NCBI GenBank assembly: GCA_003313425.1
Contig: NHZP01000065.1
Span: 186,001 to 250,000, forward strand
Source: Pseudopyrenochaeta lycopersici
Taxonomy: Eukaryota > Ascomycota > Dothideomycetes > Pleosporales > Pseudopyrenochaetaceae
Direction of reading: 5' to 3'
DNA: 64,000 nucleotides
In this document: positions 654-64,000 of the stretch, piece after piece
How the letters are laid out: each line of letters starts with the position of its first letter
Position numbering within the stretch: the stretch's first letter is position 1
Notes under the pieces: model-generated
Told to the model about the DNA's origin: nothing
Database searches by the model: none
What the model saw: only the letters and a program-made list of their open reading frames with translations
Made by a program: the position numbers and the translations under genes

Positions 654-1289
654 CTGACAGCTGTTATTATGGGGCAGCAGTACTAATTTTGTAAGAGTGG
701 GAACATTGGAACAATGAGAAGTTATTATTGCGCAGCTTCATTGTTAAGGGTGGGAGCCCTTCAGATGGAACGTCGAACCTTCAAAAAAAAATGCGTAAGT
801 CCATTTTCCGTGTGGCTGACGGTCATGCAGAGTCACGCTGGGTTGCTGTGGCGCGTTTTGCGCACAGACGGGTTGTGATGGGCACGGGCCCATTCCGTCA
901 ACTTTCGAGTGTATATATGATTCCTTTCACTAGAAAGTTGTCAAGTGGTCGGCAGCCTCGCGCTGCCTACCCTTGCCACTTTACACATAAGCATCGCCCG
1001 CGAGTGGAGCGAGTACCGAAGGGGTAGACTACTTGTAGGCTAGGGCCATGCACTTAGTAAGCAACGCAGAGCACGGACAGTGCGGGTCAGATGACTCTTC
1101 TTTGCCACTCTCTTCTTTCAATCAATGCTTTGATTGGTCTATGAACGTAGACAGATGGAATGGGCACATTATTGCCTGCTAGGGACTAGTTACTCTTGGC
1201 GGTGCCATAGATAGAGGTATATAGTCACAACAGAGGATCTGTGTTCATGGATATGTTTTACAATATGTAGTTTTTTTACTACACATGCG
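654..1289 (+). repeat. Cassette boundary B1, core hairpin 899-940
   Basis: Gene-free stretch. It holds an AAGGG/CCCTT hairpin (747-763), an A-tract with AAATG/CATTT pairing, a GCGC-GTTTT-GCGC hairpin, the short-loop form of the core (CAACTTTCGAGTG, TATATATG loop) and, downstream, GGCAGC/GCTGCC and TAGACTAC/GTAGGCTA helices. A GCAAC-type multi-helix block, CTGATTGG-like hairpin, GGGACTAG box and TATA at 1218 follow. No coding sequence seen. Confidence 0.8.
1218..1224 (+). promoter_or_regulatory. TATA box of U1
   Basis: TATATAG, followed by ACAGA/TCTGT initiator hairpin and the ATGG...CATGG leader; ATG of the gene 66 nt downstream. Confidence 0.6.
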
Positions 1290-2082
1290 ATGGATTCGCA
1301 ACCTGGAGAGCAGGCAGTGCCATCACCAGATAGTGGTGCAACAAAGTTGTTATCGCTTGTGGAAGCGTTAGAAGAAGGGAGTTCTTCCGCATTGTCCGTA
1401 GGGACACCCATGGAACAGCAGACTGTGAGGGATCACGTGCCTGGTAAGTGTCAAAGAAACAGAAGACACGGAAGAAGTTGGGCCCTTCCCAACTAACCTC
1501 ATCACAGTGCTCCACCAGCTCTGTGTCTCTATCACTGTGCATGTGCCATTGTCGGGGGGACAATCCTGGTGGGTGACCAAGGAGAGTGGGAAGTTGCCTC
1601 GTCAGTGCGTTTCTCAGAAACACACGGAGTGTTTAAAGCATCACAACGAACTTTGTGCACGGGGTGGCACGCTGAAGGCGCTTCTTGTCCTCAAGGTGGA
1701 TACGTTGAACATCGGGGAGCTAGAAAGCTCTGTTGCCTTCGCGGTGCTTTCTGTAAAGGCACTGGATGTGTTGGTGGAGCGCATTCTTCCTCTGCTCACA
1801 CTGCCGGATGGGCAGGCTGCGGAGGGTATTGTAGTCGGTATGTTATTTGATCGACTGTGCTTTGGGTACTATAGTACGCGGGTCGACTGCGCGTGTACCT
1901 TCTCCACACAGTGTGAGCCTTGTGCGTATGCGCATTATTGTTCACCGAGATTTCTCTGGTTAAATACATTTTCCGGTGAGTGGCCGCCTGGAAAGTTTGA
2001 CTGGTTCGCTGGGATCAGTGACGCTGTGGGAGCAGTACTACCGTCTGGCAGGAACTGGTTGGGTTGCAGTCGTTCTTGGTGA
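1290..2082 (+). CDS. SDAVG-family protein (U1)
   Basis: Two exons, 1290-1443 and 1508-2082, 242 aa. The 64-nt intron has a GTAAGT donor, a TTGGGC/GCCCAA-like hairpin, CTAAC branch site and CACAG acceptor; exon phase 1 is the same throughout the family. Exon 1 starts MDSQPGEQA and ends VRDHVPG. Exon 2 has WWVTKESG, a VLSVKALDVLVERILPLL helix, the CACTFSTQCEPC putative zinc site, WFAGISDAVG and NWLGC. Odd point: just after the acceptor the usual CTGGTGGAG reads CTCCACCAG, its exact reverse complement, changing LVE to LHQ. Function unknown; it could be a host-interaction protein given the F-box relatives. Confidence 0.75.
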
Positions 2083-2932
2083 GAATATTACTAGTAAGTT
2101 GCTCTCCTTTGTCTCTATGTATATGGTGTATACTAAGGTAGTAGTAGTTGTCTACGATTACGATGCGTTACATTTTGCGTATCAGCTTAGTTTAGTTTAG
2201 TACGTTATTATAACAGTATGTTGATACACTCAGTTTTGTCTTTATTTCGGTAGGTACTGATTTTGTAATGGTAGGGCCATTAGAATAACAAAGAATTTGT
2301 AGGGCGGAGGTCAGTCATGAAGGGTGGCTACGCTTACGATGGAACATCATTTTTCAGAAAAAAAAAATTTGGCTAAGTCCAATTTCCGTGTGGCTGGAGG
2401 CCATGTTGGGTCACATGGAGGTGTGGCGCGAAGAGGGCACGGGCCCATCCTCAACTTTCTAGTGTGGCGTTTTGCCTATATATGATTCCTTTCACTAGAA
2501 AGTTGTCAAGTGGTCACCAGCCTCGTGCTGGAGACCCTGGACACTTTACATCTAAGCTGTGGCCTCGAGTGGAACGAGAAGCGGACGCGTCAAGCTACTT
2601 GTAGTTTGGGGCCATTGCCCCCTGTAAGCCAACAGACGCACGGACTGTGTGAGTCAGATGACGCTGGGTTGGCACGTGAGGAGCACCCCTGCCCTCACAT
2701 CTACTAGATGTTCATAGCTATGGACACAACGGAGTGGGCGCATTATGGAATAATAGTCTTGGCGTAGGCAAAGGGTAGTGTCTCTATGCCCTTTTCTTTC
2801 CGTGTGTATACTGCGGGTACATGTGGAGCATGTTATGTATGGTGACTTTGTGTGGAGCACAATTGTACGGTAGTATCTTTTCATCAACTGCGTGAGCCTC
2901 TTTTGGCGGGCAGCGATCCGCCTCTGATTCCC
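2083..2932 (+). repeat. Cassette boundary B2, core hairpin 2452-2505
   Basis: Gene-free. Long-loop core (inner hairpin GGC-GTTTT-GCC), CCAGC/GCTGG helix, CAAGCTAC/GTAGTTTG helix, multi-helix block. The distal part (2690-2770) matches B19 (29512-29590). No convincing TATA before the U2 gene; only TATA at 2807 without the usual context. No AATAAA after U1. Confidence 0.75.
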
Positions 2933-3392: not shown

Positions 3393-4547
3393 TGTTGTGT
3401 AGTATTGTTTGGTATCTATTGAGATACTATCTTTGTTGCAGTAGAGCTATGCTGGAGGCATTGGGACGGCGTCTTAACAGGTTGTGTTTATTGAAGAAGG
3501 ACTTTAGTTAATACTATCGTATTGCCAGTGTACCTACGCAACAGTACACTGCTCTCGGTAGTATGGAGGTCCAGCTGTACGTGTACGACCTTACTCAAGT
3601 AAGTGGTAGAACCCTGAATAAGCTGCTTTTATCTTGAATCGACGTAGAAGAGCGTTATTATCGTAATCGAACGCTCAAGTTGTTGACCAGTGTAGGGACT
3701 CGGTATGAACATGATGTATGTTTTTTTTGTACTCTTAGTATTGTGTATATCATTCTTATAAGTGTTGCTTATATGCTAGAAGTGTCTTTTTATGTTTTTT
3801 AAAGTAAACATTTTATAGTGTGTAGCTTTTAACTTGTTGATATTTCGTGGCATCGTAATCTTTGATGGCGTTGGAGGTTGTTGTTTTAGTAAGGGTGTGA
3901 GCCCTTCAGATGGAACACCGTCTTCTGAAGAAAAAAAGCGTAAGTCCATTTTTGCTGTGGCTGACGGCCATGCTGAGTCAGGATGCTGTGGCTCGAGAGA
4001 GCACACATGTGGCGCAGATTGTGCGCACAGGCCTCTCCGACAACTTTCTTGTGCTATATATGATTCCTTTCACTAGAAAGTTGTCAAGTGGTCGAGGAGC
4101 CCCGTGCTCCTTGACCCCTGACACTTTACATGTAAGCAGGGCCAACGACTGGAAGGAGTAGCGAAGCGGTAGACTACTTGTAGGCTAGGGCCGCTGCACT
4201 CTTAAGTAACCCGGCGCACGGACGTAGCGCAAGATCATCTGATCTCTGGGTTACACGTGGGAGGCACTCTTGCCCCCACTCCACTCAGATTCTTCGTCTG
4301 ATTGGTCTATGGCGATAGACACAGGGAGGGAGCACTTTGTTGCCTACTAGGGACTAGTTTCTCTTGGCGAAGAATATTCTAGGTAGATACTTGGTTGTGA
4401 CGGGTAGTCATGTATGGAGGTAGTAGTATATATAAGTAAGGCCGGTCATGGCCGACTCTTTCATTACCGACGCCCTCACGGAGGCAGGACGTTGGTGGGT
4501 TTGCCTCGAGTGTCTTTTGTGGATGCAAAGGGCTGTTGCACTAGCGT
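3393..4547 (+). repeat. Cassette boundary B3, core hairpin 4041-4083
   Basis: The first ~450 nt (3393-3840) are AT-rich 3' flank of U2 with no feature I can name. Then AAGGG/CCCTT hairpin, short-loop core (CTTTCTTGTG left arm), GGAGC/GCTCC and TAGACTAC/GTAGGCTA helices, multi-helix block with GCGC and GATCATCTGATC, GTGGGAGGCAC/GCCCCCAC hairpin, CAGA/TCTG hairpin, GGGACTAG box, TATA 4427. Confidence 0.8.
4427..4436 (+). promoter_or_regulatory. TATA box of U3
   Basis: TATATATAAG; initiator hairpin GGCC-GGTCAT-GGCC just downstream; ATG 112-130 nt away. Confidence 0.65.
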
Positions 4548-5283
4548 ATGCTTAATAGTTATAGTATGGAAACTATGAGCGCGGATGTTGCTCTTTGCAT
4601 TGTTGAGCATGTAGGGACCCTCACTGAGCTTGCGTTGCTGCGACGTGTTTGTCGCGGCTGGAGGTCATCTGTTACGAAAGGGTTTAGCGCATGGGTGCGG
4701 GCACAGCGGAGCGATATGCCTTCAGAGGTCTTCTCTTTGGCGGAGCTCGCTCTTGTGAGGGATCACGTGGACAGTGAGTTAGACGGAGTTGTGCAGTGTA
4801 GCTGCGGTATTGTTGATCCCTCACGCAGTTCTTGTGTCCCATGGAGTGGTACTGGAGTGCGACGTTTCTCGGCCATGGAGAGCGTGGCGGCTTATATGGA
4901 ATGGTGCGCAGAGGGCGCTGCTTTGTGGCAGTATGTGGGGTTGTAACTGCCTCTTGCGTGTAAAGCCTTCTTTACCAGCAGCAGGCGAAGGCTATCTTGT
5001 CCTGCGAAGGGTTCCTTGGCCATGTTGGAGCCATGCTCAAAGCTGTGATGTGTGTATCACTATGCTATGTACGAAGTCGTTGGATGCGTTGGTAGAGACG
5101 ATTATTCCCTTCTTTTGGGAATCCCGTGGGAGAGAGGTCCCGCAGGATATCGTTCTTTGTGGGGACTGGAGGGTTACCTTTGTCTGGCGCGATAAGCTCT
5201 ATCATGTGTTACATGAGGTTGTGTTTGGCTGTCTGCGTAGGCGGCATTCCTGTAGTGGTACTGTGTTATTACGTGGTACGTAG
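4548..5283 (+). CDS. F-box protein with SDAVG-family C-terminus (U3)
   Basis: Exons 4548-4773 and 4829-5283 (intron 55 nt: GTGAGT donor, CCTCAC branch, CGCAG acceptor), 226 aa. Exon 1 encodes a recognisable F-box at about residues 10-50: ADVALCIVEHVG, ELALLRRVCRGWRS, then AWVRAQ, matching the L-x3-L-x-RVC-x2-W pattern of F-boxes that bind Skp1 in SCF ubiquitin ligases (family knowledge). It ends in VRDHVDS, the same exon end as F-box-less paralogues. Exon 2 resembles the family in LVSHGVVL and KSLDALVETIIPF but lacks WLTKESG and SDAVG and stops early. An alternative start is ATG 4566. Likely a substrate adaptor (inference). Identical cassettes are at U9 and U10. Confidence 0.7.
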
Positions 5284-6044: not shown

Positions 6045-6890
6045 ATGGGGTCGCATACTGGACAAGAGGCTCAGGCGGAGGCTGGTGGTGCATTGAGTGC
6101 GTCTCTGGAGTGTAGCGCTCTCCCCTTAGACAAGCTTGTCAAGGGAGCTTCATGTGAGCCTTTCGTAGGGACAGAAAGCCAAGTTCAAGTGGTGCGGAGG
6201 CACATACACAGTGAGTAGGTCCTTCGTTCTTAGTTATGTGGAACAGGTGTGGAGACAACTAACACGGAGTAAGTGCTAATGGAACATGGCATTTCGTTGA
6301 CGTATCACGTTCAGCTTGATGGTATACAGCATTGGTGGTTAACCAAGGAGAGCGGGAAGCCTCCTCAGCAGTGCGTGGAGGAACAACATGAGGGGTGCCT
6401 TGACTGCTATGATATTTTCACGGCATGTAGTGATAATAGGAGAGCGCTCCTGGTCTTCAAGGTGGATACCAAACAGGAGAGTGGGACATATAGTCTCGTT
6501 GCGTTTGCGAAGCTTTCTGTGCAGACATTCGATGTGTTTCTGCAGCGGGTGCTGCCTCTTATTGTCTTGCCGGACGGGCAGCCTGCGGAGACTGTGATGG
6601 TGGATACCGTGTTCGAGTTGCTAGATAACGGGTATTTTTCTAGCAGTGTGGATTGCGGATGTAGTCTCTATCTCGCTTGTAGAGAGTGTGCTATCCTACA
6701 GCCAACATATTCAAGGTTTGTCTGTTTCGACAGATTCTATTGTCCATATCCGTCTGGATCGAATGTTTGGTTTAGTGGTATCACGGATGCAGTAGGCATA
6801 ATAAAGCCGGCAGGGGTGAACTGGTTGAGTTGTCCGTTCTTTTCTATCAAGGAACGGCGATTGAAGAAGGCGAAGCGTGTGCCTAGTTAG
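6045..6890 (+). CDS. SDAVG-family protein (U4)
   Basis: Exons 6045-6210 and 6268-6890, 262 aa. Exon 1 (MGSHTGQEAQAEAGG ... VRRHIHS) is too short to stand out alone but keeps phase 1 with exon 2. The 57-nt intron has GTGAGT, ACAACTAAC and an unusual TAAG acceptor; it contains an in-frame stop so it must be spliced. Exon 2 has WWLTKESG, AFAKLSVQTFDVFLQRVLPLI, CGCSLYLACREC, WFSGITDAVG and NWLSC, then a basic tail (KERRLKKAKR) absent from most paralogues and possibly nuclear targeting. Function unknown. Confidence 0.72.
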
Positions 6891-7588: not shown

Positions 7589-8458
7589 ATGACGATGGTG
7601 TCGTCAACCGGAGGGCATATTCGTACGGATTGTGATGGCCGTGTAGGTAGCGTACAGCTCGAGCTTGCTCTGTCGGGGATCGACTGCCTTGTAGAAGGCA
7701 AGTTAGGAGAATTTGTTACATGGAGTGCATCTGATTTAGATTGTTTGCGGAGCCACATGGACAGTAGGCTTTTCTCTCTGTCTATCTTTCAACAGTTGGG
7801 GGCTGCAACTGACGGAGTGGTAGTGTTGGTGAAGCAACGCGTGTCTCTTACGTTTCACCTACAGCCGGATGGCGCGCTGGAGGTATGCCTGACCAAGGAG
7901 AGCGGGCAGGCTCCTCGCCAGTGTTCTGCGCCCAATGTGTGTGGGTGTTATTTTGGAAGTTGTACTTCTGCCGATAATGCCCCGATGGCATTTCTTGTTT
8001 GGAAAGCAGACGTTGTAGGACAGTACAATCAGATGCGGAGCATGGTTGCATTTGCACGTCTTTGCTCGGAAACACTGGAGGTGTTCATCGAAAGCGTATT
8101 GCCCTGTGTGTATACACATGGGAGAGATCACGTGCAGGCGGAGGAGGTCGATACGCTCTTTGACGCACTTGATCAAGGGCGATTTTCCAGTAGCGTTGGG
8201 TGCGGGTGCAAATTGCGAGAGCATTGTTTGTCCTGTTTGTCGTTACGTTCTAATCAGCAACGTTTCACGAGATGGGACATGTTTAGTGGGCCATTCCCAT
8301 GCGGTCCAGATGGCTGGTTTTCTGGGTACAGCGATGCGGTTGGAATCGTAGAACCGTTGGCGCTTGACTGGCTTACATGCCCGTATACTGCGCTCAATTC
8401 TATCTCGCCTCTCGAGGGTGCACTTAGTAAGTACTCTGTAGACGAGTTGCTCAGTTAA
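7589..8458 (+). CDS. SDAVG-family protein, long form (U5)
   Basis: A single open frame of 289 aa from ATG 7589. The position of the family intron (7764-7823, GTAGGC ... GTGGTAG, 60 nt with ACTGAC branch) is a multiple of three and has no stop, so both spliced (269 aa) and retained forms would be in frame. Exon 1 (MTMVSSTGGHIRTD ... RSHMDS) is unlike the MES type and is shared only with U25/U34/U40. Exon 2 has LTKESGQAPRQC, FARLCSETLEVFIESVLP, CGCKLREHCLSC, WFSGYSDAVG and DWLTC. Second copy at U34. Confidence 0.78.
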   Translation: MTMVSSTGGHIRTDCDGRVGSVQLELALSGIDCLVEGKLGEFVTWSASDLDCLRSHMDSRLFSLSIFQQLGAATDGVVVLVKQRVSLTFHLQPDGALEVCLTKESGQAPRQCSAPNVCGCYFGSCTSADNAPMAFLVWKADVVGQYNQMRSMVAFARLCSETLEVFIESVLPCVYTHGRDHVQAEEVDTLFDALDQGRFSSSVGCGCKLREHCLSCLSLRSNQQRFTRWDMFSGPFPCGPDGWFSGYSDAVGIVEPLALDWLTCPYTALNSISPLEGALSKYSVDELLS

Positions 8459-9982: not shown

Positions 9983-10766
9983 TGCGGAGGCAAAGATCTT
10001 GTATGGCACAGTATATGTGTTGTCTCATATATATTTGTGAGTATTATTGGTAGATGGTTCTATTTACGATGGAATATGTGTGGGGGACCGTTTTTACCTT
10101 AGCAGCCTTTGGTTTTTTGTGCAGTGGTGGCTGCTTGTTCATTGTTTGCAGGATTTACTTGTAAGTATCTGCAGAGAGTATTTTTTCAAAAAAAAAATTG
10201 GCTAAGTACGACACAGTGTGGCGCAAAAAAAAAGTTGTCAATTGCCCTGTGCGCGATTTAGCGCGGTTCTGGAGGTACATGGTCCTCACCCAGTAGTGGG
10301 TGGGCGGGAGGTCACTCTCCAGCCACGTCAACTTTCTAGTGTGGCGTTCCGCCTATATATGATTCCTTTCACTAGAAAGTTGTCAAGTGGTCACCAGCCT
10401 CGTGCTGGAGACCCTGGACACTTTACATCTAAGCTGTGGCCTCGAGTGGAACGAGAAGCGGACGCGTCAAGCTACTTGTAGTTTGGGGCCATTGCCCCCT
10501 GTAAGTAACACGCAGCACGGACTGTGTGAGTCAGATGACGCTGGGTTACACGTGGGTGGCACCCTTGGCCCCACACTCTATCAGATTCTTCGTCTGATTG
10601 GGCTATGGCGATAACCTCATGGAATGGGCACGTCTTTGCTCGCTAGGGACTAACGCTTCTTGGCGTTGCCATGTCTTTGGGACGACGAGTAGTTAAGAGA
10701 GGGGTGTGCCCTCTGCCTCTTCTCTCTACCACGGAGGTGGTGTCTTTGTGTAGCAATAGTAGCAGG
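9983..10766 (+). repeat. Cassette boundary B7, core hairpin 10329-10382
   Basis: Second-class pre-core module (about 10196-10328): GGCGCA-A-tract, CAATTGCCCTGTGCGCG, CACCCAGTAGTGGGTG hairpin. Long-loop core GGC-GTTCC-GCC. CCAGC/GCTGG and CAAGCTAC/GTAGTTTG helices. At the TATA position the sequence is AGTTAAGAG (10691-10699), so the promoter is degenerate, yet the GAGAGGGGTGTGCCCTCT hairpin is kept. Confidence 0.75.
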
Positions 10767-11654
10767 ATGCGGTTCTTCACATTTGTTACAGGTGATCGCC
10801 GAAGGAGGCTTCCAGGCGATATTTGGTTGATGGTGATGGAGTCACTCGTCGCGGGGTCGACGTTCTCAGAGCTGGTGGCCAGCCTGTACCGGATGGACTT
10901 TTTTAAAGAATGTTTCTTTAGACTGTGGGTGCGGATGCAGCCCGAGGGAGTATGCCTGGAGCCCTTTTCAGGCACCGATATAGAATTGGATATGGTGATG
11001 GATCACGTGCACGGCGAGTGCTTTCTTTTCTCTCTATATAAGTTGAGAGACTCCCTACTAACTGGGACAGTTCTTGTGGAGCAAGGTGTTTCAGTGACAC
11101 TTCACGTTAGGATGAGTAGGCGACGAACATGGTGGCTTACCAGGGAGAGTGGACTTACCCCGTGCGAGTGTATTGAGCAAGCGGATGCTTCTTCTGTGTC
11201 ATCCTACTTGGTAGTTGTTGATGAACGCGCGCTCCCCCCGAGCGTCTCTCCTCGCTGTTTACGTATTTCCTCATGGATTGCGATGTTAACTGTGGATACA
11301 TTGTATGTGTTACGGCATCGGATAATTCCCGGGGCGTCCTATCATCGTTATGCGCGTTACTTGGGAGATATGGGGTATTGGAACCTGTTGGAGCGTGGTT
11401 TCTTTAGTAGCAGGCGTGACTGCGCGTGTGGCCTGGAAGGTTATCTTTTACCGTGTGGTGAGTGCGAGGCGGTCCCAAAACGGCTCCGGTTGTTTGGTGT
11501 GTTGCCACCGTACTGGGGTCATCATGATGCATTGGAAGAGGTTGAACCACAGTCATGGTTTCATGGCGTGACAGACGCCAGGGGTTGTATTACAGAGGAC
11601 TGTACGCCGTGGTTGCAGTGTGCATGTGCGGAAGGAACTGGTTGTAGTACGTAG
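10767..11654 (+). CDS. F-box-like SDAVG-family protein (U7)
   Basis: 295 aa from ATG 10767; an in-frame ATG at 10671 lies upstream of the presumed transcript start and is less likely. Residues ~14-55 (LPGDIWLMVMESLVAG, then ELVASLYRMDFF, FFRLWVRMQ) resemble an F-box that has lost the RVC-x2-W core. The usual intron site reads GGCGAGT, i.e. a GC-AG intron 11014-11070 of 57 nt, open and in frame, so it may be retained. The rest has WWLTRESG, CACGLEGYLLPCGEC (expanded Cys spacing), WFHGVTDARG and WLQC. Links the F-box and plain members of the family. Confidence 0.7.
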   Translation: MRFFTFVTGDRRRRLPGDIWLMVMESLVAGSTFSELVASLYRMDFFKECFFRLWVRMQPEGVCLEPFSGTDIELDMVMDHVHGECFLFSLYKLRDSLLTGTVLVEQGVSVTLHVRMSRRRTWWLTRESGLTPCECIEQADASSVSSYLVVVDERALPPSVSPRCLRISSWIAMLTVDTLYVLRHRIIPGASYHRYARYLGDMGYWNLLERGFFSSRRDCACGLEGYLLPCGECEAVPKRLRLFGVLPPYWGHHDALEEVEPQSWFHGVTDARGCITEDCTPWLQCACAEGTGCST

Positions 11655-25007: not shown

Positions 25008-25856
25008 ATGGATCACCGCATCAGCGATAGTAGAGCGGCAGGCGTCGCGGGCCAGGATGGCGGGTCTGGTACTGCTGTAGGGATAACCAGCAATGGGAAG
25101 AGGGCGAAGCTTTGTCGGGACGATCCCACTGGAGGTGTTGTCTCTCTATTGCGGAGCAAGGAAGTCGTAGAGGATTTGTTATCACGTGTTCCGGAGCCAT
25201 CGCTGATGTCTAGCCGACCTGGTGGGGGAGGCTCGGTGTCGTATCTTTCAGCAACGGATGCTATCCGCCTTGCTAACAGGGTGTTTGGTTTTGACGGATG
25301 GGCAAACGAAATTCTCGAAGATGAACGGCTTGGAGAGGAACCGGGGCCGGTGTCTAAGACTAGGCAGTCTACTACGACTACGACTACGACGGTCTATTGG
25401 CGATCGAAGATAGCAGTCACACTGGCGGAGCACTTAGGAGGGGCGCGCCATGAGGATTGGGGCTATGGGAAGGCCACAGCTGCTAGTAAACTCGTAGCCA
25501 TTGAGAACGCAGCGAAGGAGTCTGTGACGGATGGCATAAAGCGAGCGTTGATTTTTTTTGGCGAGGCTACAGGGAACTGTTTTAAGGATCATGCCTATCT
25601 CGCCTGGGCACAGCGTGTTATGCGGAGCGGCGAGTGTGCTAGGAAGAGATTTTCTATGGATGAAGTTGTGCGTTTGGATGACGCAGGCAGTGATCGATGT
25701 CCCGCTGGTGGATCTACCAGTGCATTGGCTTCTCGGGTGGCTGTGCCTGTTACGAGGTCTCCTGTTAAGCAGGAAAAAGAGGTGGAACGGCTTGGTGGGG
25801 ACGCTGATATATTTGATTCAGATGATTTTGATTATGATATGGGGGAGTTCAATTAG
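25008..25856 (+). CDS. Rad52-family single-strand annealing protein (U16)
   Basis: 282 aa from ATG 25008; no intron needed. Residues ~75-205 match the Rad52/Rad22 N-terminal annealing domain: YLSATDAIRLANRVFGFDGW (substrate-binding beta/alpha region), later HEDWGYG, then KESVTDGIKRALIFFGEATG and NCFKDHAYL, the family's most conserved helix (E-A-x-TDG-x-KRAL-x-x-FG). Rad52 proteins form rings that anneal complementary single strands. N-terminal 70 residues and the acidic C-tail (DADIFDSDDFDYDMGEF) are not conserved; no Rad51-binding region is evident. It is the only DNA-metabolism gene seen in the window. In an array whose cassettes share a 39-bp core, an annealing protein would suit recombination between cassettes (inference). 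Confidence 0.88.
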   Translation: MDHRISDSRAAGVAGQDGGSGTAVGITSNGKRAKLCRDDPTGGVVSLLRSKEVVEDLLSRVPEPSLMSSRPGGGGSVSYLSATDAIRLANRVFGFDGWANEILEDERLGEEPGPVSKTRQSTTTTTTTVYWRSKIAVTLAEHLGGARHEDWGYGKATAASKLVAIENAAKESVTDGIKRALIFFGEATGNCFKDHAYLAWAQRVMRSGECARKRFSMDEVVRLDDAGSDRCPAGGSTSALASRVAVPVTRSPVKQEKEVERLGGDADIFDSDDFDYDMGEFN

Positions 25857-40095: not shown

Positions 40096-40756
40096 GTTTT
40101 GTTGGATAGACCATGGAAGAATGGTTGATTTGTAGCATTAGTACGTGCGGTAGTAGAATTCTGTTGTTAAGGTATGCATGGCTGTGGTACGGCATAGTAC
40201 TGTGCAATATTCTGGGAAGCGAAGGCTGACATTAGCGTAGGGTGGTTAATGGAACATCGAACCTTCAAAAAAATTGGCTAAGTCCAATTTCACAGTGGCT
40301 GGAGGCCATGCAGAGTCACGTTGGCTGTGGCGCAGATCGTGCGCACAGACCCCGACTCAACTTTCTAGTGTGGCGAACCGCCTATATATGATTCCTTTCA
40401 CTAGAAAGTTGTCAAGTGGTCGAGGAGCCCCGTGCTCCTTGACCCCTGACACTTTACATGTAAGCAGGGCCAACGACTGGAAGGAGTAGCGAAGCGGTAG
40501 TCTTGAATAAGACTAGGGGCGCTGCACTTAGTAACCACAGCAAAGCACGGACGTGTGGTCGTCTGACATGGTGTGGCACGCTTTGATCTGTGATCTAATT
40601 GGTCTATGAACATAGACAGCATGGAGTGGGCAGAACCCTGCCAAGTATGGAATAGTATATCTCGGCAGAGAGGACCAGTCGGTAGGGCGCTATATAGGGT
40701 GTTCTTTAGCGCTTAGCTTCTGCACGGACTGTGCTTGTAGCAGAATTATAAAGAGA
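40096..40756 (+). repeat. Cassette boundary B26, core hairpin 40358-40411
   Basis: AATTGG/CCAATT hairpin, GCGCAGATCGTGCGC hairpin, GGC-GAACC-GCC long loop; right half as in B8. TATA 40691. Shortest interval class (1556 bp) on its left. Confidence 0.78.
40691..40697 (+). promoter_or_regulatory. TATA box of U26
   Basis: Same TATATAG context as U8. Confidence 0.6.
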
Positions 40757-41240
40757 ATGGCGTCTGCCGTGATTCTGTTCTCTTCTTTGGCTGTGCTATG
40801 CGGGGCCTTTTTTTGCACAGCTGCGGTGCGTCACACGGAGGTGTGTTACAGAATTGGCCAATTGTCTCGAGCGCGGGACGCTGTTGTCGCGCGCAATGCG
40901 TACGGATGGTATGCTCATAGCCATGGGTACCACACTTTTACGTAGTGTGGACGAGGGGGGTTCGCCAACCCGCTCACATGAAAGCGTGTTCTTCCGGAGG
41001 GATGATACGAGTAGCAAGACAGTGGCTACTTGGGTGGCAAGCACGTCGTGGCCGCACGTGACTACGTTGCCTCTACCTAGTGGTATGAACGGAGGAGGCG
41101 GCTCAACTGGTAGCCGTGGAGCGAGCGATGTGTTGTTAGCAACCGTTCTTGCGGTTGTTGCTTTTGTGGCAGCGCTGGTGGCGCTCTCGTTGGTTTTATG
41201 GCGATGCACGGGAAGGTATTACGCGCGTGCTCTGGTGTAG
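40757..41240 (+). CDS. Signal-peptide / single-pass membrane protein, copy 3 (U26)
   Basis: Apparently identical to U8 (offset +28432): frames 40757-40908 and 40946-41240. The CDS and AATAAA are intact although the cassette is truncated shortly afterwards. Confidence 0.6.
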
Positions 41241-41697
41241 AGCATCTACATTTCACGGCAATGTCGTTTCTGCTAGGGGCAAAACAAAAACATGCCCTAC
41301 CATGCTCCGTTTTTTGGTAGCACGGTGCGCTTCTATAAGTTGTTTTGACTCTCTTAGCTGTGGAGCAGCGATTCTGGGTTGTATGCATAGGGTCTCAATA
41401 GTGGGACACGGCAGGCAGGATGCGTCCTCTGTTAAGGCTTCGTTCACCGTGTAGGTGTTATACATATTGCGTCAAGGATTTGCGCTGTGGGAGCGTTTGG
41501 TGTATGGTACAATATAGCTGCAGAGCTAGTCTCTTGCTGGGAACGGTGAATGCCGGTTGTTTGTTTCTGTTAGTACTCAGTAAATTCACAAAAAAAAATA
41601 CTGAGTATTTACGTTGGAGTTACAGAGGGACGTAGTATAGTTTGTATTGGTAAGTACCTATTTTACGGTTTATGTCTTTTATTTTCTGTTTCTTTAA

Positions 41698-41703
41698 AAT
41701 AAA
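41698..41703 (+). terminator. Poly(A) signal of U26
   Basis: AATAAA retained only 6 bp before the deletion junction. Confidence 0.5.
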
Positions 41704-42013
41704 GTTATGATTCCTTTCACTAGAAAGTTGTCAAGTGGTCGAGGAGCCCCGTGCTCCTTGACCCCTGACACTTTACACGTAGGCTTTGGCCGTGACTGGA
41801 GGGAACAGCGAAGCGTTAAACCACCTGGGGTTTAGGGCCATTGCCCCCTGTAAGCAACGCGAAGCACGGACGTAGCGCGAGATCATCTGGTCTCTGGGTT
41901 GCCACACCTGTTAAATCTATGATTTGATTGGTCTATGAATGTAGACATAGGGAGTGTGCGTTTCTTCGCTCACTAGGGACTAGGTGCTCTTGGCATGACT
42001 TGATGGATGTCAA

Positions 42014-53979: not shown

Positions 53980-54701
53980 GTATTGTTTAGTATGGACTAT
54001 TATTGTCAAGCATGATAGGTGCACGATTTCTGTCGGACAGACTCTACATGAAACAATTAATTTGTGGTAGTAGTTGGCGGTAGCTAATTTTTGTTTTCAG
54101 GTATGGATGGTGGTTATGTACTATGGTATATAGTAAGGGTGTGAACCCTTAGGATGGAACATCAAATCTGAAGAAAAAATGCGTAAGTCCATTTTGTGTG
54201 TGGCTGACAGTCACGCAGGGTCACGTTAGCTGTGGCGCGGGGAGCGCAGACATGGGTCGTTTTTGGGCACGGGCCCATTCTCTCAACTTTCTTGTGCTAT
54301 ATATGATTCCTTTCACTAGAAAGTTGTCAAGTGGTCAGGAGCCTTGCGCTTCTGACCCATGTAACTTTACCTTAAGCTGTGGCCACGAGTGGAACGAGAA
54401 GCGGAGTGTTAGACTACTTGTAGGCTAGGGCCTCTGCCCCTTGTAAGCCTACAAAAGCACGGACTGTGCGGGTCATCTGACTGTTGTGGGCACGTGGGAG
54501 ACACTCTTGGCCCCACTCCAGCTAAATCTATGATTTAATTGGTCTATGTCTATAGAGTCATGGAATGTGCATTCTATTGCTTACTAGGGACTAGTATTTC
54601 TTGGCAGCGCTCAAGAGAGAGAGGTATATAGGAACAACAGAGGATCTGTTTCTACGGAGTGTGGCAGTCCCTTGAGGGATCCTTTTTTATTTCTACTTTG
54701 C
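53980..54701 (+). repeat. Cassette boundary B35, core hairpin 54284-54326
   Basis: Left half as in B6; right half: AGGAGC/GCTTCT, TAGACTAC/GTAGGCTA, CCTACAA/TTGTGG closing stem, AAATCTATGATTTAATT; TATA 54625. Confidence 0.77.
54625..54632 (+). promoter_or_regulatory. TATA box of U35
   Basis: TATATAGG with AACAG-AGGAT-CTGTT initiator hairpin; promoter intact although the gene is dead. Confidence 0.55.
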
Positions 54702-55443
54702 GATGGGGTCGCATACTGGATAGTGTGCTTTTGCGGGGTCCGCTTGCACAACCACCCTCCTATCTATAGTAGATGGGGTACAGGCAGGATGTCGCTGCCC
54801 AGTGTCTGTAGGGACATCCACAGCGTTGAGAGATCACGTGCACAGTGAGTATCTTTCTCTTCTGACACGCAATCAGTTGGGTACTGTAACTGATAGAGTA
54901 GTAGCCCTAGTGGAGCGGCGTGTGTCACTAACTACCTAGGCAGATTTGCCAGGCAGACGACATTGGTGGGTAACCAAAGAGAGCGGGCAGCCTCCCCGCG
55001 AATGCATTTCGCAGAAACACACGGAGTGTCTTCACCGCTACGGAGAACTCTGTAGACAGGGAGGGACGCAACAGTCGCTCCTTGTATTCAAGGCAGATAC
55101 GAACTACTAGGGCGAGACTCTTTGTCTCGTTGTATTTGCGAAGCTCTCTCTAGAGGCATTAGACATCGTCTTGCAGAGTATTTTACCCCTTCTCATTCTG
55201 TCGTCGGGGCAGAGGGCAGACGCTGTAGAGCTTGATGGAGTATGCTCCATATACTGCTAGAGAAACCTCCTCAGCAGTGTAGACTGCGGATGTAACGAGT
55301 TCGGTTTCTGTAGGCCTTGCAGACGCATAAGGCCCGCGTCAGGGAGGTTTTCCCATTCCAATGGATTTGATAGAGTTTATCTCAATAGGAAGCGTATGTA
55401 GTTGAGTAGGATCAGCAACACAGTAGGAGTAGTACAGCCATAA
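54702..55443 (+). pseudogene. SDAVG-family pseudogene (U35)
   Basis: The ATG in TTGCG-ATG is kept (MGSHTG) but TAG follows at codon 7. Family motifs remain readable in one frame (VERRVSLT, WWVTKESGQPPREC, FAKLSLEALDIVLQSILPLL, VDCGC), broken by TAG in several places and one TAA near the end; SDAVG reads SNTVG. Nearly all breaks are substitutions, not indels, and most stops are TAG, consistent with TGG or CAG-type changes. The usual intron signals are still recognisable (54844-54903 region). Confidence 0.75.
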
Positions 55444-56281
55444 GGTTATGGAGTAGCAGTCATGTCTATAGGACAGCTAGATGGTTATAAGAAGACGTGG
55501 TCTATCAGAGTCGTATCTAGTAAGAGACAGGTTAAGATGTAGTAACCCAAAAAAAGTACATTTGGTAATAGTAAGTACTTTTTGTTTATTTACAGTATTC
55601 CAAATTCATTAAAATAAGGATAACCCAAAAACTATAGAATAGTTACTAATGGTACGATGTAAGGTTTGTAGATTCGGGAAGAAGAGCAAAGAATGTTGGG
55701 TGCGGAGCTCAGTTGTTAAGGGTGTGAGCCCTTCAGATGGAATTTCCAAAAAAAATTTGCTAAGTCCACAGGGCGTGTGGCTGACAGTCACGTTGGGACA
55801 GCGTGGCGCGATGAGCGGACAGGGGGTGGTGTGGCGCGGATTCTGCGCGCACAGACCAGAAATCAACTTTCGAGTGCTATATATGATTCCTTTCACTAGA
55901 AAGTTGTCAAGTGGTCAGGAGCCTTGCGCTTCTGACCCATGTAACTTTACCTTAAGCTGTGGCCACGAGTGGAACGAGAAGCGGAGTGTTAGACTACTTG
56001 TAGGCTAGGGCCTCTGCCCCTTGTAAGCCTACAAAAGCACGGACTGTGCGGGTCATCTGACTGTTGTGGGCACGTGGGAGACACTCTTGGCCCCACTCCA
56101 GCTAAATCTATGATTTAATTGGTCTATGTCTATAGAGTCATGGAATGTGCATTCTATTGCTTACTAGGGACTAGTATTTCTTGGCAGCGCTCAAGAGAGA
56201 GAGGTATATAGGAACAACAGAGGATCTGTTTCTACGGAGTGTGGCAGTCCCTTGAGGGATCCTTTTTTATTTCTACTTTGC
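55444..56281 (+). repeat. Cassette boundary B36, core hairpin 55864-55906
   Basis: AT-rich 3' flank, AAGGG/CCCTT, TAAGTCCACAGGG, GCGCGGATTCTGCGCGC, short-loop core; right half identical to B35. TATA 56205. Confidence 0.78.
56205..56212 (+). promoter_or_regulatory. TATA box of U36
   Basis: Same TATATAGG as U35. Confidence 0.5.
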
Positions 56282-57023
56282 GATGGGGTCGCATACTGGA
56301 TAGTGTGCTTTTGCGGGGTCCGCTTGCACAACCACCCTCCTATCTATAGTAGATGGGGTACAGGCAGGATGTCGCTGCCCAGTGTCTGTAGGGACATCCA
56401 CAGCGTTGAGAGATCACGTGCACAGTGAGTATCTTTCTCTTCTGACACGCAATCAGTTGGGTACTGTAACTGATAGAGTAGTAGCCCTAGTGGAGCGGCG
56501 TGTGTCACTAACTACCTAGGCAGATTTGCCAGGCAGACGACATTGGTGGGTAACCAAAGAGAGCGGGCAGCCTCCCCGCGAATGCATTTCGCAGAAACAC
56601 ACGGAGTGTCTTCACCGCTACGGAGAACTCTGTAGACAGGGAGGGACGCAACAGTCGCTCCTTGTATTCAAGGCAGATACGAACTACTAGGGCGAGACTC
56701 TTTGTCTCGTTGTATTTGCGAAGCTCTCTCTAGAGGCATTAGACATCGTCTTGCAGAGTATTTTACCCCTTCTCATTCTGTCGTCGGGGCAGAGGGCAGA
56801 CGCTGTAGAGCTTGATGGAGTATGCTCCATATACTGCTAGAGAAACCTCCTCAGCAGTGTAGACTGCGGATGTAACGAGTTCGGTTTCTGTAGGCCTTGC
56901 AGACGCATAAGGCCCGCGTCAGGGAGGTTTTCCCATTCCAATGGATTTGATAGAGTTTATCTCAATAGGAAGCGTATGTAGTTGAGTAGGATCAGCAACA
57001 CAGTAGGAGTAGTACAGCCATAA
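56282..57023 (+). pseudogene. SDAVG-family pseudogene, tandem copy (U36)
   Basis: Apparently exact repeat of U35 at +1580 bp, carrying the same premature stops, so the duplication is younger than the inactivating mutations. Confidence 0.75.
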
Positions 57024-57830
57024 GGTTATGGAGTAGCAGTCATGTCTATAGGACAGCTAGATGGTTATAAGAAGACGTGGTCTATCAGAGTCGTATCTAG
57101 TAAGAGACAGGTTAAGATGTAGTAACCCAAAAAAAGTACATTTGGTAATAGTAAGTACTTTTTGTTTATTTACAGTATTCCAAATTCATTAAAATAAGGA
57201 TAACCCAAAAACTATAGAATAGTTACTAATGGTACGATGTAAGGTTTGTAGATTCGGGAAGAAGAGCAAAGAATGTTGGGTGCGGAGCTCAGTTGTTAAG
57301 GGTGTGAGCCCTTCAGATGGAATTTCCAAAAAAAATTTGCTAAGTCCACAGGGCGTGTGGCTGACAGTCACGTTGGGACAGCGTGGCGCGATGAGCGGAC
57401 AGGGGGTGGTGTGGCGCGGATTCTGCGCGCACAGACCAGAAATCAACTTTCGAGTGCTATATATGATTCCTTTCACTAGAAAGTTGTCAAGTGGTCAGGA
57501 GCCTTGCGCTCCTTACCCTTGCCACTTTACACGTAAGCTTTGCCTGCGATTGGAGATCGCAACGGAGTGTTAAACTAGAATTAGTTTAGAGGCAATGCAC
57601 TTAGTAAGCAGAGCAGAGCACGGACGGTGCGGGTCATCTGACTCTTCTTTGCCACTCTTTTTTTCAATCAGTCATTTGATTGGTCTATGAATGTAGACAA
57701 CATGGAATGGGCACTCCGCTGCTTACTATGTAGTAGTTGGTCTTTGCAGGGTGCAAGAGACAGAGGTATATAATAATAACAGGGGAGCTGTTTGTACGGA
57801 GTGTCTTTTTTTCATTCTTTTTGCTTTGCG
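57024..57830 (+). repeat. Cassette boundary B37, core hairpin 57444-57486
   Basis: Left half as in B36. Right half: AGGAGC/GCTCCT, GCGAT-TGGAG-ATCGC hairpin, TAAACTA-GAAT-TAGTTTA, CAATCAGTCATTTGATTG; the GGGACTAG box reads ATGTAGTAG; TATA 57767. Confidence 0.77.
57767..57774 (+). promoter_or_regulatory. TATA box of U37
   Basis: TATATAAT with AACAG-GGGAG-CTGTT initiator hairpin. Confidence 0.65.
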
Positions 57831-58617: not shown

Positions 58618-59560
58618 CCACGATGTAGTTTGTTTGCCTTATGGAATGGCATTGGTAATGCTATAGTCTTTGAGACAGAGTACATGCTGACTTTGTGCTT
58701 TTTATAATACGTTAGTATCATAAAGCTCTATGGTATAGTATAGCCTATTTGTGTAGGAGAATAGGTATGTTTATTGTATTTTACTTTTTTTTCGTATTAG
58801 AAAATAGGACTGATTTAGTAATGGTAGGGCTCTTCTGGAAACGAAGAAATCGTGGTGCGGAGCTTCATTGTTAAGGGTGTGGGCGCCCTTGGGATGGAAC
58901 ATCAAATCTCTCAAGAAATTTTGGCTAAGTCCAATTTCCCTGTGGCTGGAGGGCCATGCAGAGTCACATGGAGATGTGGCACATGGGGGGGCACGGGCCT
59001 CCCTGACAACTTTTCTAGTGTGGCGCAGCCTATATATGATTCCTTTCACTAGAAAGTTGTCAAGTGGTCGAGAGCCTTGCGCTCGGGACCACGACGGCTT
59101 TACCTGTAAGCTTTGGCCGCCTACGGAGTGGGCAGTGGAACGTTAAACTACTCGTAGTTTAGGGGCAATGCACTTAGTAAGCGCAGCATGACATGGATAT
59201 GTTGTCAGATGACGTTGCTGAGCCTGATTTCTTTGATCTTTGATCTAATTGGTCTATGAATATGGACAGCAGGGAGTGTGCAGGACTCTGCCATCTAGGG
59301 ACTAGGTGGTCTTGGCGTCGCGCAAGGGCTGGATAGGTATATATATAAGGGGGGGAAGGCCCTCCCCCCGCTCACGGAGTGTGATGTTCATTAGAACAGG
59401 TTGGTACCCTGCTGAGGATCAGCCTGGCTAGTGGGCCTGTTGTTGTGGAGTGTTCCACTACTTAGCTGGCAGTGTGCCAGTTACGAAGGAGCCGTTGGGC
59501 GAAGTATTGTCGGATTTCGACGTGCGTTGGTGACGCTCTAGGTACTTGGTTAAGTACGGT
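58618..59560 (+). repeat. Cassette boundary B38, core hairpin 59007-59059
   Basis: AAGGG/GCCCTT, AAATTTTGG/CCAATTT, GGC-GCA-GCC loop, GAGC/GCTC, GCC-TACGGAGT-GGGC, TAAACTAC/GTAGTTTA; TATA 59338. The leader 59352-59560 (209 nt) is unusually long and may contain a first exon I could not define. Confidence 0.74.
59338..59349 (+). promoter_or_regulatory. TATA box of U38
   Basis: TATATATATAAG, the strongest TATA in the window, with GGGGGAAGGCCCTCCCCC initiator hairpin. Confidence 0.68.
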
Positions 59561-60041
59561 ATGGACGATGCGGTGTTGCTATGGGTTGCAGCCCTTGCTT
59601 ATGCCCAAGGAGGCCTTTTAGTGTGGCTGCTGTGGACAGCGGGCCGTGTCTATCGCAGGCTTCGACGGAGGCGGCTGGTTTGTTACAGTGGAGCTTTGTA
59701 CCCGGCGTGTGAGTCCGCTGACGACAGGTTAGGGTCTTGCCCGTGTTCGGCTTGCAGTCACGTGGAGCGTGGTCACGGTGGTGGTGGTAAGCAGCGCGTT
59801 CGTTCTTCTTGCTGTGTTTGACCAAGTTGGTCTTATGTGGAGCTGTAGCGCCCGGTTAGGTGGCCTCGGGGCGCTTTTAGCATGGTTGGCGGTGGTCTAT
59901 CAGGTATGGGGACTACTCTGGATCCTGCTTGTGCTCAGCTATCCTGTCACGTCTTTTGGGCGGAGGCGACGTGCGTATACAAGTGTTGTTCTTGTATTCT
60001 ATGGCGTTGTAGTGCTGTGGCTGGTGGCAAGCTCGTGTTAG
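59561..60041 (+). CDS. Four-transmembrane protein (U38)
   Basis: Exons 59561-59708 and 59758-60041, 143 aa. The 49-nt intron has a consensus GTGAGT donor, GCTGAC branch and GGCTTGCAG acceptor and restores one frame. Hydrophobic segments: ~4-26 (DDAVLLWVAALAYAQGGLL), ~52-72 (VVTVVVVSSAFVLLAVF), ~82-106 (ALLAWLAVVYQVWGLLWILL), ~122-140 (VVLVFYGVVVLWLVA). Basic loops (RRLRRRRL after TM1, FGRRRRAY after TM3) put both on the cytosolic side by the positive-inside rule, so N- and C-termini would be outside or luminal. Family not recognised; a small channel or receptor-like protein is possible. Not related to the SDAVG proteins. Confidence 0.62.
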
Positions 60042-60619
60042 CCATCCACCTGTTCCTACAGAGTGTATAGCATTTTCCTGCTGTTTTTTAGCGTGCACTA
60101 TTCACTGCGGAGCGTGTGGGGGTAGGGAGCGCACGGTATTGTTATTCGCTGGTAGGAGAACGATGCATTTGTGTGAGAGTTAGGGTCGCTTACTATTAGT
60201 AGAACATGGTTTGTCGTACGTATGTGGTTGTATGGTAGACTGCGATGAGAACGCTCTACTCGTCATGCTTCCGCCCCTCGTAGACGTGCGCGAATGTCTG
60301 GAGATAGCCGGTACGTAGGGTTTAGATTTTATTGTTAGTGAAGCTGATGTGTGTAGTATAGTATTGTTCTTCAGGTTAGGGTGCGTGCACAGAGGGAAGC
60401 GTGGTTGGTAGTAGTTACTATTTGCGTGCAGTATTTTGGAAAAAAAACCAAAAAAAAATCACGAAGTGCTCCAGGGTGTGGCGCAAAAAAAAGTTGTCAG
60501 TTGCCCTGTGCGCAGTTTAGCGCGGTTCTGGAGGTACATGCCGTTCAGGCATTCCTTGGTGTGCGGGGAGGTCACTCCCCAGCCACGACAACTTTCTAGT
60601 GTGGCGTTCCGCCTATATA

Positions 60620-60640
60620 GGGTTAGGGTTAGGGTTAGGG
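60620..60640 (+). repeat. Interstitial telomeric repeat in the core loop
   Basis: Three GGGTTA units plus GGG, exactly between TATATA and TTCCTTTCAC. TTAGGG is the telomere repeat of vertebrates, many other animals, many fungi and some protists, and occurs in some herpesvirus genome ends, so it does not identify the host. Confidence 0.9.
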
Positions 60641-61765: not shown

Positions 61766-62586
61766 GCCCTTACGTCCATCCTTGTAGGTTAGATACATAT
61801 TTGGCTATTATGTAGGAGTATGTTCCATAATGCAATGGGATAAGTTTTTACATGGGTTGTGTTTAAAGTTAGTTGTATGGGACGCTTATTTGTACGGTGG
61901 TATATGCTTGTAACCAAGTTATTGGTAGTAATGGGTTTATTATTTTACCTGTTCAAAGGTTTGCACACAGGAAGTATTGGTAATGTCCTACTCTTTAGAC
62001 ATTTTGCTTACGGTAGTTGTAGGGATGCAGTCTTAGAATGCGCAGAATTTTTTAAAATGGCCAGGGAGTGAGGCTCTAGGATGGAATAGCGAAGATCAAA
62101 AAAATTTGGCTAAGTCCAATTTCCGTGTGGCTGGAGGCCATGTTGGGTCACATGGAGGTGTGGCGCGAAGAGGGCACGGGCCCATCCTCAACTTTCTAGT
62201 GTGGCGTTCTGCCTATATATGATTCCTTTCACTAGAAAGTTGTCAAGTGGTCGGCAGCCTCGCGCTGCCTACCCTGGACACTTTACCTGTAAGCAGAGCC
62301 TGTGACTGGAGGGAACAACGAAGTGTTAGTCTTGAATAAGACTAGAGGCAATGCACTTACTAAGCATAGCAGAGCACGGGCGCGTGCTGATCATCGGATC
62401 GCTGCTTGCCCACTTTTTTTTTCAATCAGTTGTCTGATTGGTCTATGAATGTAGACAACATGGAATGGGCAGCCCTCTGCTAACTAGGGACTAGTAACTC
62501 TTGGCGAAGACAGCGTGGATATCACGGTATATAAGCAGGGGAGGGCCTCCCCCGCCCATGGAAGTGATGTTTTTGGTTTACTCCAA
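61766..62586 (+). repeat. Cassette boundary B40, core hairpin 62189-62242
   Basis: AT-rich flank 61766-62060, AATTTGG/CCAATTT, long-loop core GGC-GTTCT-GCC; the AAGGG/CCCTT hairpin is degenerate here. Right half as in B25; TATA 62528. Confidence 0.77.
62528..62535 (+). promoter_or_regulatory. TATA box of U40
   Basis: Same TATATAAG as U25. Confidence 0.65.
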
Positions 62587-63482
62587 ATGACGATGGCGTC
62601 GTCACCCAGAGTGCACATCTCTACGGAGCATGATGGAAGTGTTTCTAGCGTACAGCTGGAGCGTGTTTTGTCGGGGATCGACTGCCTTGTAGAAGGAATT
62701 CGAGGGGAAGCTATTGCAGCGAGTGCATCTAGCTTACATTGTGTGCGGGCGCACATAGACAGTATGTTCTCTTTTTGTAGATGTTTTAGTAGTTGGGCGG
62801 AGGTCCCCCAACTAACGGAGTAGCAGAGTTGGTGGAGCAAGGCATCTCTTTTACGTTTCATCTAAAGCCGGATGGCGCCTTAGACGTATGGCTCACTCGG
62901 GAGAGCGGGCAGGCTCCTCGCCAGTGTTCTGCGCCCAATGTGTGTGGGTGCTATTTTGGAAATTGTGCGTCTGCCGACAATGCCCTGACTGCATTTCTTG
63001 TCTGGAGAGCAGATGTTGTAGGAGAATACAATCAAGTGCGGAGCATGGTTGTGTTCGCGAAGCTCTGTTCCGATACATTTGATGTATTCATCAAAAGCGT
63101 GCTGCCTTGTGTGTATACACGTGATAGGGATCTTGTGCAGGCGGAGGACGTGGATACGCTGTTTGGTTTGCTAGACGTAGGCGGATTTTCCAGTAGCGTG
63201 GGGTGCGGGTGCACATTGCGAGAGCATTGTCTGTCCTGTTTGTCGTTGCGTTTTAATCGGCAACGTTTCACGAGATGGGACATGTTCAGTGGGCCATTCC
63301 CATGTGGTCCAGACGGCTGGTTTCCTGGGTACAGTGATGCGGTTGGAATTGTACAACCGTTGGCGCTTGACTGGCTCACATGTCCGCATATTGCGTTATC
63401 GTCTACTTTGTCTATTGACGGTGCACTTAGTAATTGTTCTGTAGATGAGTTACTATGGATGACTATATTTAGGAATGATTGA
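62587..63482 (+). CDS. SDAVG-family protein, second copy of U25 (U40)
   Basis: Apparently identical to U25 (offset +23387): exons 62587-62761 and 62827-63482, 276 aa. Preceded by U39 instead of U24 and followed by a U4-type cassette instead of U26. Confidence 0.77.
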
Positions 63483-64000
63483 GTTTTGTTGGATAGACCA
63501 TGGAAGAATGGTTGATTTGTAGCATTAGTACGTGCGGTAGTAGAATTCTGTTGTTAAGGTATGCATGGCTGTGGTACGGCATAGTACTGTGCAATATTCT
63601 GGGAAGCGAAGGCTGACATTAGCGTAGGGTGGTTAATGGAACATCGAACCTTCAAAAAAATTGGCTAAGTCCAATTTCACAGTGGCTGGAGGCCATGCAG
63701 AGTCACGTTGGCTGTGGCGCAGATCGTGCGCACAGACCCCGACTCAACTTTCTAGTGTGGCGAACCGCCTATATATGATTCCTTTCACTAGAAAGTTGTC
63801 AAGTGGTCAGGAGCCTTGCGCTCCTTGACCCCTGACACTTTACTGTAAGCTTTGCCTGTGAGTGGAGCGAGTACCGAAGGGTTAAACTACTCGTAGTTTA
63901 GAGGCAATGCACTTAGTAAGCAACACAGCGCACGGACGTAGCGCGAGATCATCTGGTCTCTGGGTTGCCACACTTCTAAGATTATCTATCTGATTGGTCT
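63483..64000 (+). repeat. Cassette boundary B41, core hairpin 63745-63798, and start of a U4-type cassette
   Basis: Left half as in B26. After the core, 63799-64000 matches 5657-5858 (AGGAGC/GCTCCT, TAAACTAC/GTAGTTTA, multi-helix block, TATCTGATTGG). The window ends before its TATA and gene. Confidence 0.8.

Follow-up and report, generated by a model that had tools for sequence, protein, structure and literature searches.

Introduction

In the Nanoviridae each segment carries a single virion-sense gene, and the segments share a stem-loop. Nanoviruses have six to eight individually packaged segments of similar length, about 1 kb, and plant hosts. Among viruses of fungi, BcssDV1 has an ascomycete host and is tetrasegmented. 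In its published description, the circular single-stranded DNA (ssDNA) segments are 1669-1707 nt long with one gene each and have common regions, a Rep of 321 or, when spliced, 380 amino acids (aa) is on one segment and a putative capsid protein (CP) on another, and the nonanucleotide TACTCTT^CA lies within a stem-loop. The genome of Fusarium graminearum gemytripvirus 1 (FgGMTV1), another ssDNA virus of fungi, is likewise multipartite: Rep, CP and an additional protein each have a segment of their own. This tripartite virus is counted in the Genomoviridae, a family with a genome of 1.8-2.4 kb that carries both Rep and CP (PMC10731770). Here we describe head-to-tail arrays of gene cassettes at chromosome ends of Pseudopyrenochaeta lycopersici, starting from a stretch of 64,000 nt ("the window", positions 186001-250000 of contig NHZP01000065.1, here C65) in an assembly of 62.7 Mb and 188 contigs. 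The RPB2 fragment of this genome is 94% identical to that of Plenodomus lingam and 93% identical to those of Pyrenophora seminiperda and Parastagonospora nodorum, the highest values among the 120 matches listed, which places the host in the Pleosporales. We conclude, with a probability of roughly 0.8, that the cassettes are integrated segments of one virus of the circular Rep-encoding ssDNA (CRESS) type, or of an element derived from such a virus. Its segments would number about 72, each of about 1.58 kb, and were probably joined at telomeres by Rep.

The nanovirus plan of uniform one-gene segments with a shared stem-loop is matched by these units, which differ in number (63 types seen), in length (1.58 kb) and in their location in a Pleosporales genome. 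We know of no telomeric archive of a nanovirus. With BcssDV1 the units share an ascomycete host, near-equal one-gene segments and the placing of Rep and CP (a candidate here) on separate segments, and the boundary motif of the units, TATGATT/CC, resembles TACTCTT^CA in shape. BcssDV1 has only four segments, however, compared with an observed 63 types and an estimated 72 or so in these arrays. In BcssDV1 Rep is encoded in negative sense, whereas the Rep here is on the nonanucleotide strand, and the available text on BcssDV1 does not mention telomeric arrays. The genome plan of the Genomoviridae is not matched by 1.58-kb units that encode Rep and the CP candidate separately, in the same sense. 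FgGMTV1 has three segments, and the accessible part of its description does not mention a telomeric form (PMC10731770). A search of the open-access literature, a body that excludes most subscription papers and preprints, found no account of such telomeric segment arrays.

Units of uniform length in arrays across the genome

An earlier note on the window had described 41 copies of one core dividing it into 40 intervals, all but one of 1556-1601 bp, and our recount agreed. The core 20-mer TTCCTTTCACTAGAAAGTTG has 41 copies on the + strand, and the 40 intervals between them have a mean of 1571 and a median of 1575 bp, with 39 of them at 1556-1601 bp and a single outlier of 1319 (Table 1). Autocorrelation of the window gave maxima at lags of 1573 and 1580. 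The interval 59040-60640 holds a telomeric tract of 21 nt, and the actual unit there is therefore 1580 nt. The array on C65 comprises 71 complete units, the last unit being truncated and followed by telomeric repeats to the contig end at 291258.

Genome-wide, the core pattern CCTTTCACTAGAAAGTTG was found in 893 copies and the reversed control pattern in none, so that the arrays total about 1.4 Mb (893 cores of 1.58 kb). The commoner 28-nt form of the core was matched exactly by 809 of the 893 cores and is absent from 84; a variant core with TTGAGCAAGTGG replacing TTGTCAAGTGG was seen in certain types (array loci L016, L028, L031 and others). The distribution of unit lengths outside the window, for which the earlier note had named a wide scatter as a refuting outcome, showed no such scatter among fetched units: with telomeric tracts trimmed and the window included, 142 units had a mean of 1575.5 nt (standard deviation (SD) 23.7; 5-95% limits 1562-1595), and the 1319-nt unit of the window was the sole one shorter than 1540 or longer than 1620 nt.

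This constancy is independent of what the units contain, as the earlier note had proposed. Across the 63 unit types described below, unit length was 1578.2 ± 10.1 nt, compared with 518 ± 241 nt for the longest ATG open reading frame (ORF), which serves as a proxy for coding length since the gene models are merely mechanical. The two were uncorrelated (r = -0.03), indicating that the remainder of the unit compensates. The 1319-nt unit is a type found elsewhere in the window minus 263 nt. The deletion takes the 3' common region and the left stem arm, and TATG is present at both break points. Lacking the left arm, this unit could not replicate as an origin-bearing circle, and it probably arose by deletion after integration.

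Two further claims, that the genes lie on one strand and that this strand is rich in G+T, also held. The longest ATG ORF was on the + strand in 54 of the 63 types, and G+T was 58.6% in the C65 array, compared with 50.0% and 51.1% in two flank stretches. The array strand has a GC skew of +0.21 and an AT skew of -0.135, an asymmetry that would be expected for a strand that is single-stranded part of the time. Just left of the array, C65:172001-178900 is strongly purine-rich, with a GC skew of +0.85 and an AT skew of +0.45 over 6.9 kb, with GGGTTAGGG scattered near its end.

The unit boundary is an origin-like stem-loop

The unit boundary TATGATT/CC sits in the loop of a TATGATTCC stem-loop. Four boundaries folded as single-stranded DNA gave -8.3 to -12.1 kcal/mol (z -4.0 to -5.7). 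A further boundary, interrupted by the telomeric tract mentioned above, gave -16.1 kcal/mol (z -4.9) with the tract in the loop when both arms were supplied, and z -1.9 without the left arm. In all five boundaries folded with both arms, the boundary was in the loop. When the ends of each type were joined to each other, the boundary was flanked in 61 of 63 types by a stem with no fewer than 8 pairs. By sequence, the units thus appear to have the stem-loop and nonanucleotide of a CRESS-DNA virus, and we regard the boundary as a putative origin. The Rep gene described below is on the nonanucleotide-bearing strand; Rep and the capsid candidate are on separate units, in the same sense.

Units are joined to telomeric repeats in one register

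The telomere repeat of this genome is TTAGGG. In all six array starts that were fetched, two to three telomeric repeats lie between the flank and the first unit, immediately adjoining the latter. Exact pattern counts of the bases before the core gave ATGATT for 852 of the 893 cores, TTAGGGTT for 40 and neither for one. Of the 41 cores that lack ATGATT in this position, all but at most one thus keep to a single telomeric register out of six. The favoured register leaves TT before CC, like the nicked origin. The converse joint, from a unit end directly into telomeric repeats, was found in 17 places; among the places listed, contigs C5, C18, C50, C54, C65, C83, C89 and C92 have both joints, with terminal-looking telomere tracts beyond. 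At the array ends of C65 and C54, units are cut elsewhere and then followed by telomere repeats. All arrays that could be placed are at chromosome ends. The TTAGGG strand with its 3' end is the same strand as that of TATGATT/CC, an orientation that would agree with a chemical model in which the 5' end held by Rep is transferred to a telomeric 3' end.

Free concatemers of a real multisegment virus, wrongly joined to chromosome ends during assembly, might account for these arrays, and the differences between copies are mostly short gaps, resembling long-read error. We consider such an artefact improbable, because at all six array starts fetched a telomeric tract of one kind connects the array to flanks that differ, and because arrays end in telomere caps. 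Human herpesvirus 6, a large double-stranded DNA virus, is also found at TTAGGG ends and carries its own telomeric repeats, unlike the units here, which have none of their own and are joined at TT/CC.

The joints also bear on how the arrays grew. The segments may be truly integrated, with growth and shuffling brought about not by Rep but by homologous recombination or single-strand annealing at the cores, by host or viral functions and possibly by the encoded Rad52. The cores offer at least 20 identical bases at the boundaries, a Rad52 gene is present in the library in 13 copies, and identical units are neighbours four times where 1.9 were expected (P 0.13). Such exchange at cores, whether or not the encoded Rad52 takes part, is a serious competing account of how the arrays grow, although we are inclined to doubt it. 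Recombination alone leaves unexplained why a single register of six precedes 40 of 41 cores, and exchange was not seen at other stretches shared between types, among which exact matches reach no more than 168 nt (63 types). Joining of segments to telomeric 3' ends by Rep is probably the better account.

A library of mostly identical copies in random order

Units were read by place at about 132 of the 893 cores. The 132 placed units represent 63 types, of which 21 were seen once, 23 twice, 12 three times, six four times and one five times. The Chao1 estimate, a lower bound, is 71.8 types, so that a type would have about 12 copies (893/72). Of 105 pairs of same-type copies, 94 were letter-identical. 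In the remaining 11 pairs, one copy is the deleted unit or has lost an end to the trimming of a telomeric tract, or the strings differ by short gaps, with three substitutions in addition in one such pair of strings. Within the window, units are either identical throughout or clearly distinct: of 24 pairwise matches of at least 150 nt and at least 90% identity, eight cover the whole unit at 100%, two are with the shortened unit, and the other 14 are confined to the 5' end, over at most 220 nt. The ends are common to the types, with a mean identity of 0.89 over the first 50 nt and 0.77 over the last 50 nt in 150 sampled type pairs (0.57 when shuffled). The 168-nt match is shared by types V056 (C50 array) and V060 (C23 and C61 arrays), which are 87.7% identical over 1448 nt; this suggests a segment that was duplicated and diverged fairly recently.

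The order of units in the arrays is random. Among 124 adjacent pairs, one ordered pair recurred (1.8 ± 1.35 when shuffled, P 0.84), and the number of identical neighbours given above compares with a shuffled 1.9 ± 1.35. Block duplication would have yielded recurrent pairs and is disfavoured by the lack of an excess. A conventional family of tandem genes, kept uniform by gene conversion and unequal crossing-over, is very improbable on these data: the arrays are tandem, subtelomeric and in one orientation, as such a family would be, but identity is all-or-none over whole units, neighbour order is not conserved, length does not follow ORF length, telomeric repeats are placed exactly at boundaries, and the units have a Rep and origin-like boundaries.

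Repeat-induced point mutation (RIP) appears to have touched the flanks more than the arrays. Five flank stretches beside four arrays were RIP-like (TpA/ApT 1.78-3.91, second index 0.19-0.80) and five arrays hardly or not so (1.07-1.20 and 1.00-1.07), a contrast that is suggestive only, since purine-rich flanks shift these indices. Together with the near-identity of copies, it is consistent with arrays that are young or continually rewritten.

Proteins encoded by the units

Rep is a protein of 392 aa with VTWS, HYHAV, YCFK, a Walker A sequence GPSRLGKT, LVLNDIDF and VTCN, which we take to be HUH motifs I-III and those of an SF3-type helicase. A protein search with Rep found 14 homologues, and the motifs align with 11 of them. 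On these motifs it would be a CRESS-like rolling-circle Rep. Its two halves matched the Pfam families REP_ORF2-G2P (5e-4), Gemini_AL1 (0.0086), Phage_GPA (0.06) and Gemini_AL1_M (1e-3). Among the 12 aligned Reps, our own included, Gemini_AL1_M was matched by six, Gemini_AL1 by three and REP_ORF2-G2P by three, some homologues giving stronger matches. The nearest sequences in the PDB were two Rep proteins (E 0.07-0.09), and no PDB sequence match was found for the helicase half. Homologues from Pyrenophora tritici-repentis (52%) and P. seminiperda (57%) are carried by contigs of 1600 and 241,788 bp, respectively. None of the 14 is named as a genomovirus Rep, most carrying no name. The P. lycopersici genome has nine identical full-length Rep copies and several fragments, two with an internal stop. 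A second Rep relative (46% over residues 50-171), with three copies genome-wide including C92 at about 44980-45519, has HUH motifs without a visible helicase and matches REP_ORF2-G2P below the cut-off (E=4e-5).

Full-length Rep, the capsid candidate and Rad52 are each confined to a single type. The capsid candidate has 353 aa and a basic N-terminus, and its composition and size suggest the capsid role. It has eight identical full copies genome-wide and two further matches of 29 aa (93%) adjoining telomeric repeats. The last unit of the C65 array (C65:290777-291165) is apparently of the capsid-candidate type, truncated to some 390 bases with TTAGGG beyond. The Rad52 copies are identical to one another. 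RAD52-like exons of the host (C12:1420608-1421119) are 45-48% identical to the segment-borne protein, and the gene may have been captured from this host locus.

Forty of the 63 types encode a paralogous domain of about 185 aa, here called family A, always on the + strand; 23 types lack it. In one type the family A match is split across three open frames (Table 1). This type has been amplified, with four copies among the placed units, and an intact family A frame may therefore not be required for propagation. Putative introns are retained in the units. The picture of one main gene per segment is read from mechanical models, and certain types have no long ORF.

Our Pfam scans covered 21 protein queries from among the 63 types, and no reverse transcriptase was found in these. 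MoTeRs are telomeric non-LTR retrotransposons of fungi, and a telomere-associated family of this kind, or like the FoTeRs (PMC12857005), would share the fungal telomeric location of the units. We nevertheless consider it very improbable, as the scanned queries gave no reverse transcriptase, putative introns are retained, and a Rep and an origin stem-loop are present instead.

Table 1. Features of the window, in window coordinates
Feature	Position	Strand	Remarks
Partial unit (3' part)	1..920	+	Core upstream of the window at C65:185336
Origin-like stem-loop over unit boundary	899..947	+	-8.3 kcal/mol, z -4.0; TATGATT/CC break in loop, between 922 and 923
Head-to-tail units	921..63778	+	40 complete, 33 distinct strings; array extends on the left from C65:178992 and on the right to the telomere at C65:291165
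Stem-loop at following boundary	2450..2512	+	13-bp stem, small inner GGC/GCC hairpin; -11.8 kcal/mol, z -5.7
Weak F-box-like domain before family A exon	4548..4946	+	Unit 4064-5636; PF12937 E=7e-4, under curated cut-off
Family A domain, example	6273..6845	+	
Family A gene, single ORF	7589..8458	+	289 aa; in-frame intron possible
Family A gene	10671..11654	+	327 aa; N-terminal part F-box-like by eye; no Pfam match
Small ORF with hydrophobic segment	12422..12808	+	Probably membrane-spanning (by eye); no Pfam match
Rad52/Rad22-family gene	25008..25853	+	282 aa; unit 24574-26148; PF04098 E=7.2e-28
1319-nt unit	40392..41710	+	Type of 11960-13541 minus 263 nt
Two identical copies side by side	54307..57466	+	Family A match split across three open frames
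Interstitial telomeric tract GGG(TTAGGG)3	60620..60640	+	Between two units; TT/CC joint to next unit

Interpretation

The earlier note had likened the array to a multipartite or minicircle-like genome held as a concatemer, under a physical limit on cassette length. The multipartite concatemer and the length limit are supported by the CRESS-like Rep, the capsid candidate, the origin-like stem-loop, the shared random-order library and the independence of unit length from ORF length; the organelle-like minicircle had to be given up. A minicircle organelle genome is ruled out by the nuclear telomere repeats at the ends of arrays and inside them, and the proteins that could be named are Rep and Rad52.

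In the model that we propose for integrated CRESS-type segments, a typical segment would have one main gene on the nonanucleotide strand, shared end regions and a stem-loop origin. A single Rep acting in trans would nick every origin at TATGATT/CC and give unit-length circles, their size being fixed by a limit on packaging or on unit-length replication. At a chromosome end, the 3' end of the telomeric G-strand (...GGGTT-OH) would replace the usual acceptor (...TATGATT-OH), and the Rep-linked 5' end (CCTTTC...) would be joined onto it. The new 3' end (...ATGATT) could then accept a further segment or be extended by telomerase (AGGG...). Repeated additions would produce head-to-tail arrays in random order. 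We infer encapsidation, sequential growth and a single virus, rather than several, as the source.

Several observations weigh against this interpretation. The units are known from assembled sequence, and free circles and particles are predictions of the model. All Pfam matches of this Rep are under the curated cut-offs, and a search of IMG/VR gave no relative. The capsid candidate had no homologue at E<=0.01 and no Pfam or PDB sequence match, and its fold model was unusable (predicted local distance difference test (pLDDT) score of 36). The AlphaFold model of family A (pLDDT 76) matched nothing in the PDB or among viral models, and a Pfam scan of 13 of the 23 types without family A named only Rep and Rad52. 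In just 26 of 63 types is the whole four-base stretch 3' of the boundary unpaired, and the array start at C4:2186166 is the sole core with neither form of junction.

Polydnaviruses have dozens of segments with large paralogous families and a chromosomal proviral form, the segments being large double-stranded DNA circles from wasp loci. The arrays here might likewise be the main hereditary form of a domesticated element, kept for telomere protection or for delivery of family A, with segments that are excised and packaged and no independent virus. About 1.4 Mb of arrays, some 12 copies per type, an open Rep frame and a large paralogous family spread over the segments would fit such an element. 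We nonetheless judge it unlikely, since random order and the near-perfect identity of dispersed copies require frequent passage through a free pool and not an inherited archive alone. Polydnaviruses are not Rep-type elements and are not known to form telomeric arrays of unit-length segments.

Integrated segments of a CRESS-type virus or derived element are thus our preferred reading. A more specific form of it can be put forward only tentatively, at a little under even odds: that an ssDNA virus of about 72 separately replicating segments ligates them to telomeric 3' ends through its Rep, so that chromosome ends become a growing archive of the full set in random order and owe their capping in part to virus DNA and not solely to telomerase.

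Implications

If true, about 72 segments would be far above the numbers of known ssDNA viruses (six to eight in nanoviruses and three to four in the fungal relatives described above), and would stretch the question of how multipartite genomes persist. With about 12 copies of each type, the arrays constitute a genomic record in which the gain and loss of segments and the limits of packaging can be followed. Segments stored at chromosome tips would imply an insertion route specific to telomeres, and the uniform TT/CC joint suggests a new and testable way of writing DNA at chromosome ends, in which a Rep-bound 5' end is placed onto the telomeric 3' overhang. The system also lends itself to the study of virus integration in its interplay with telomerase, with RIP and with the evolution of subtelomeric genes.

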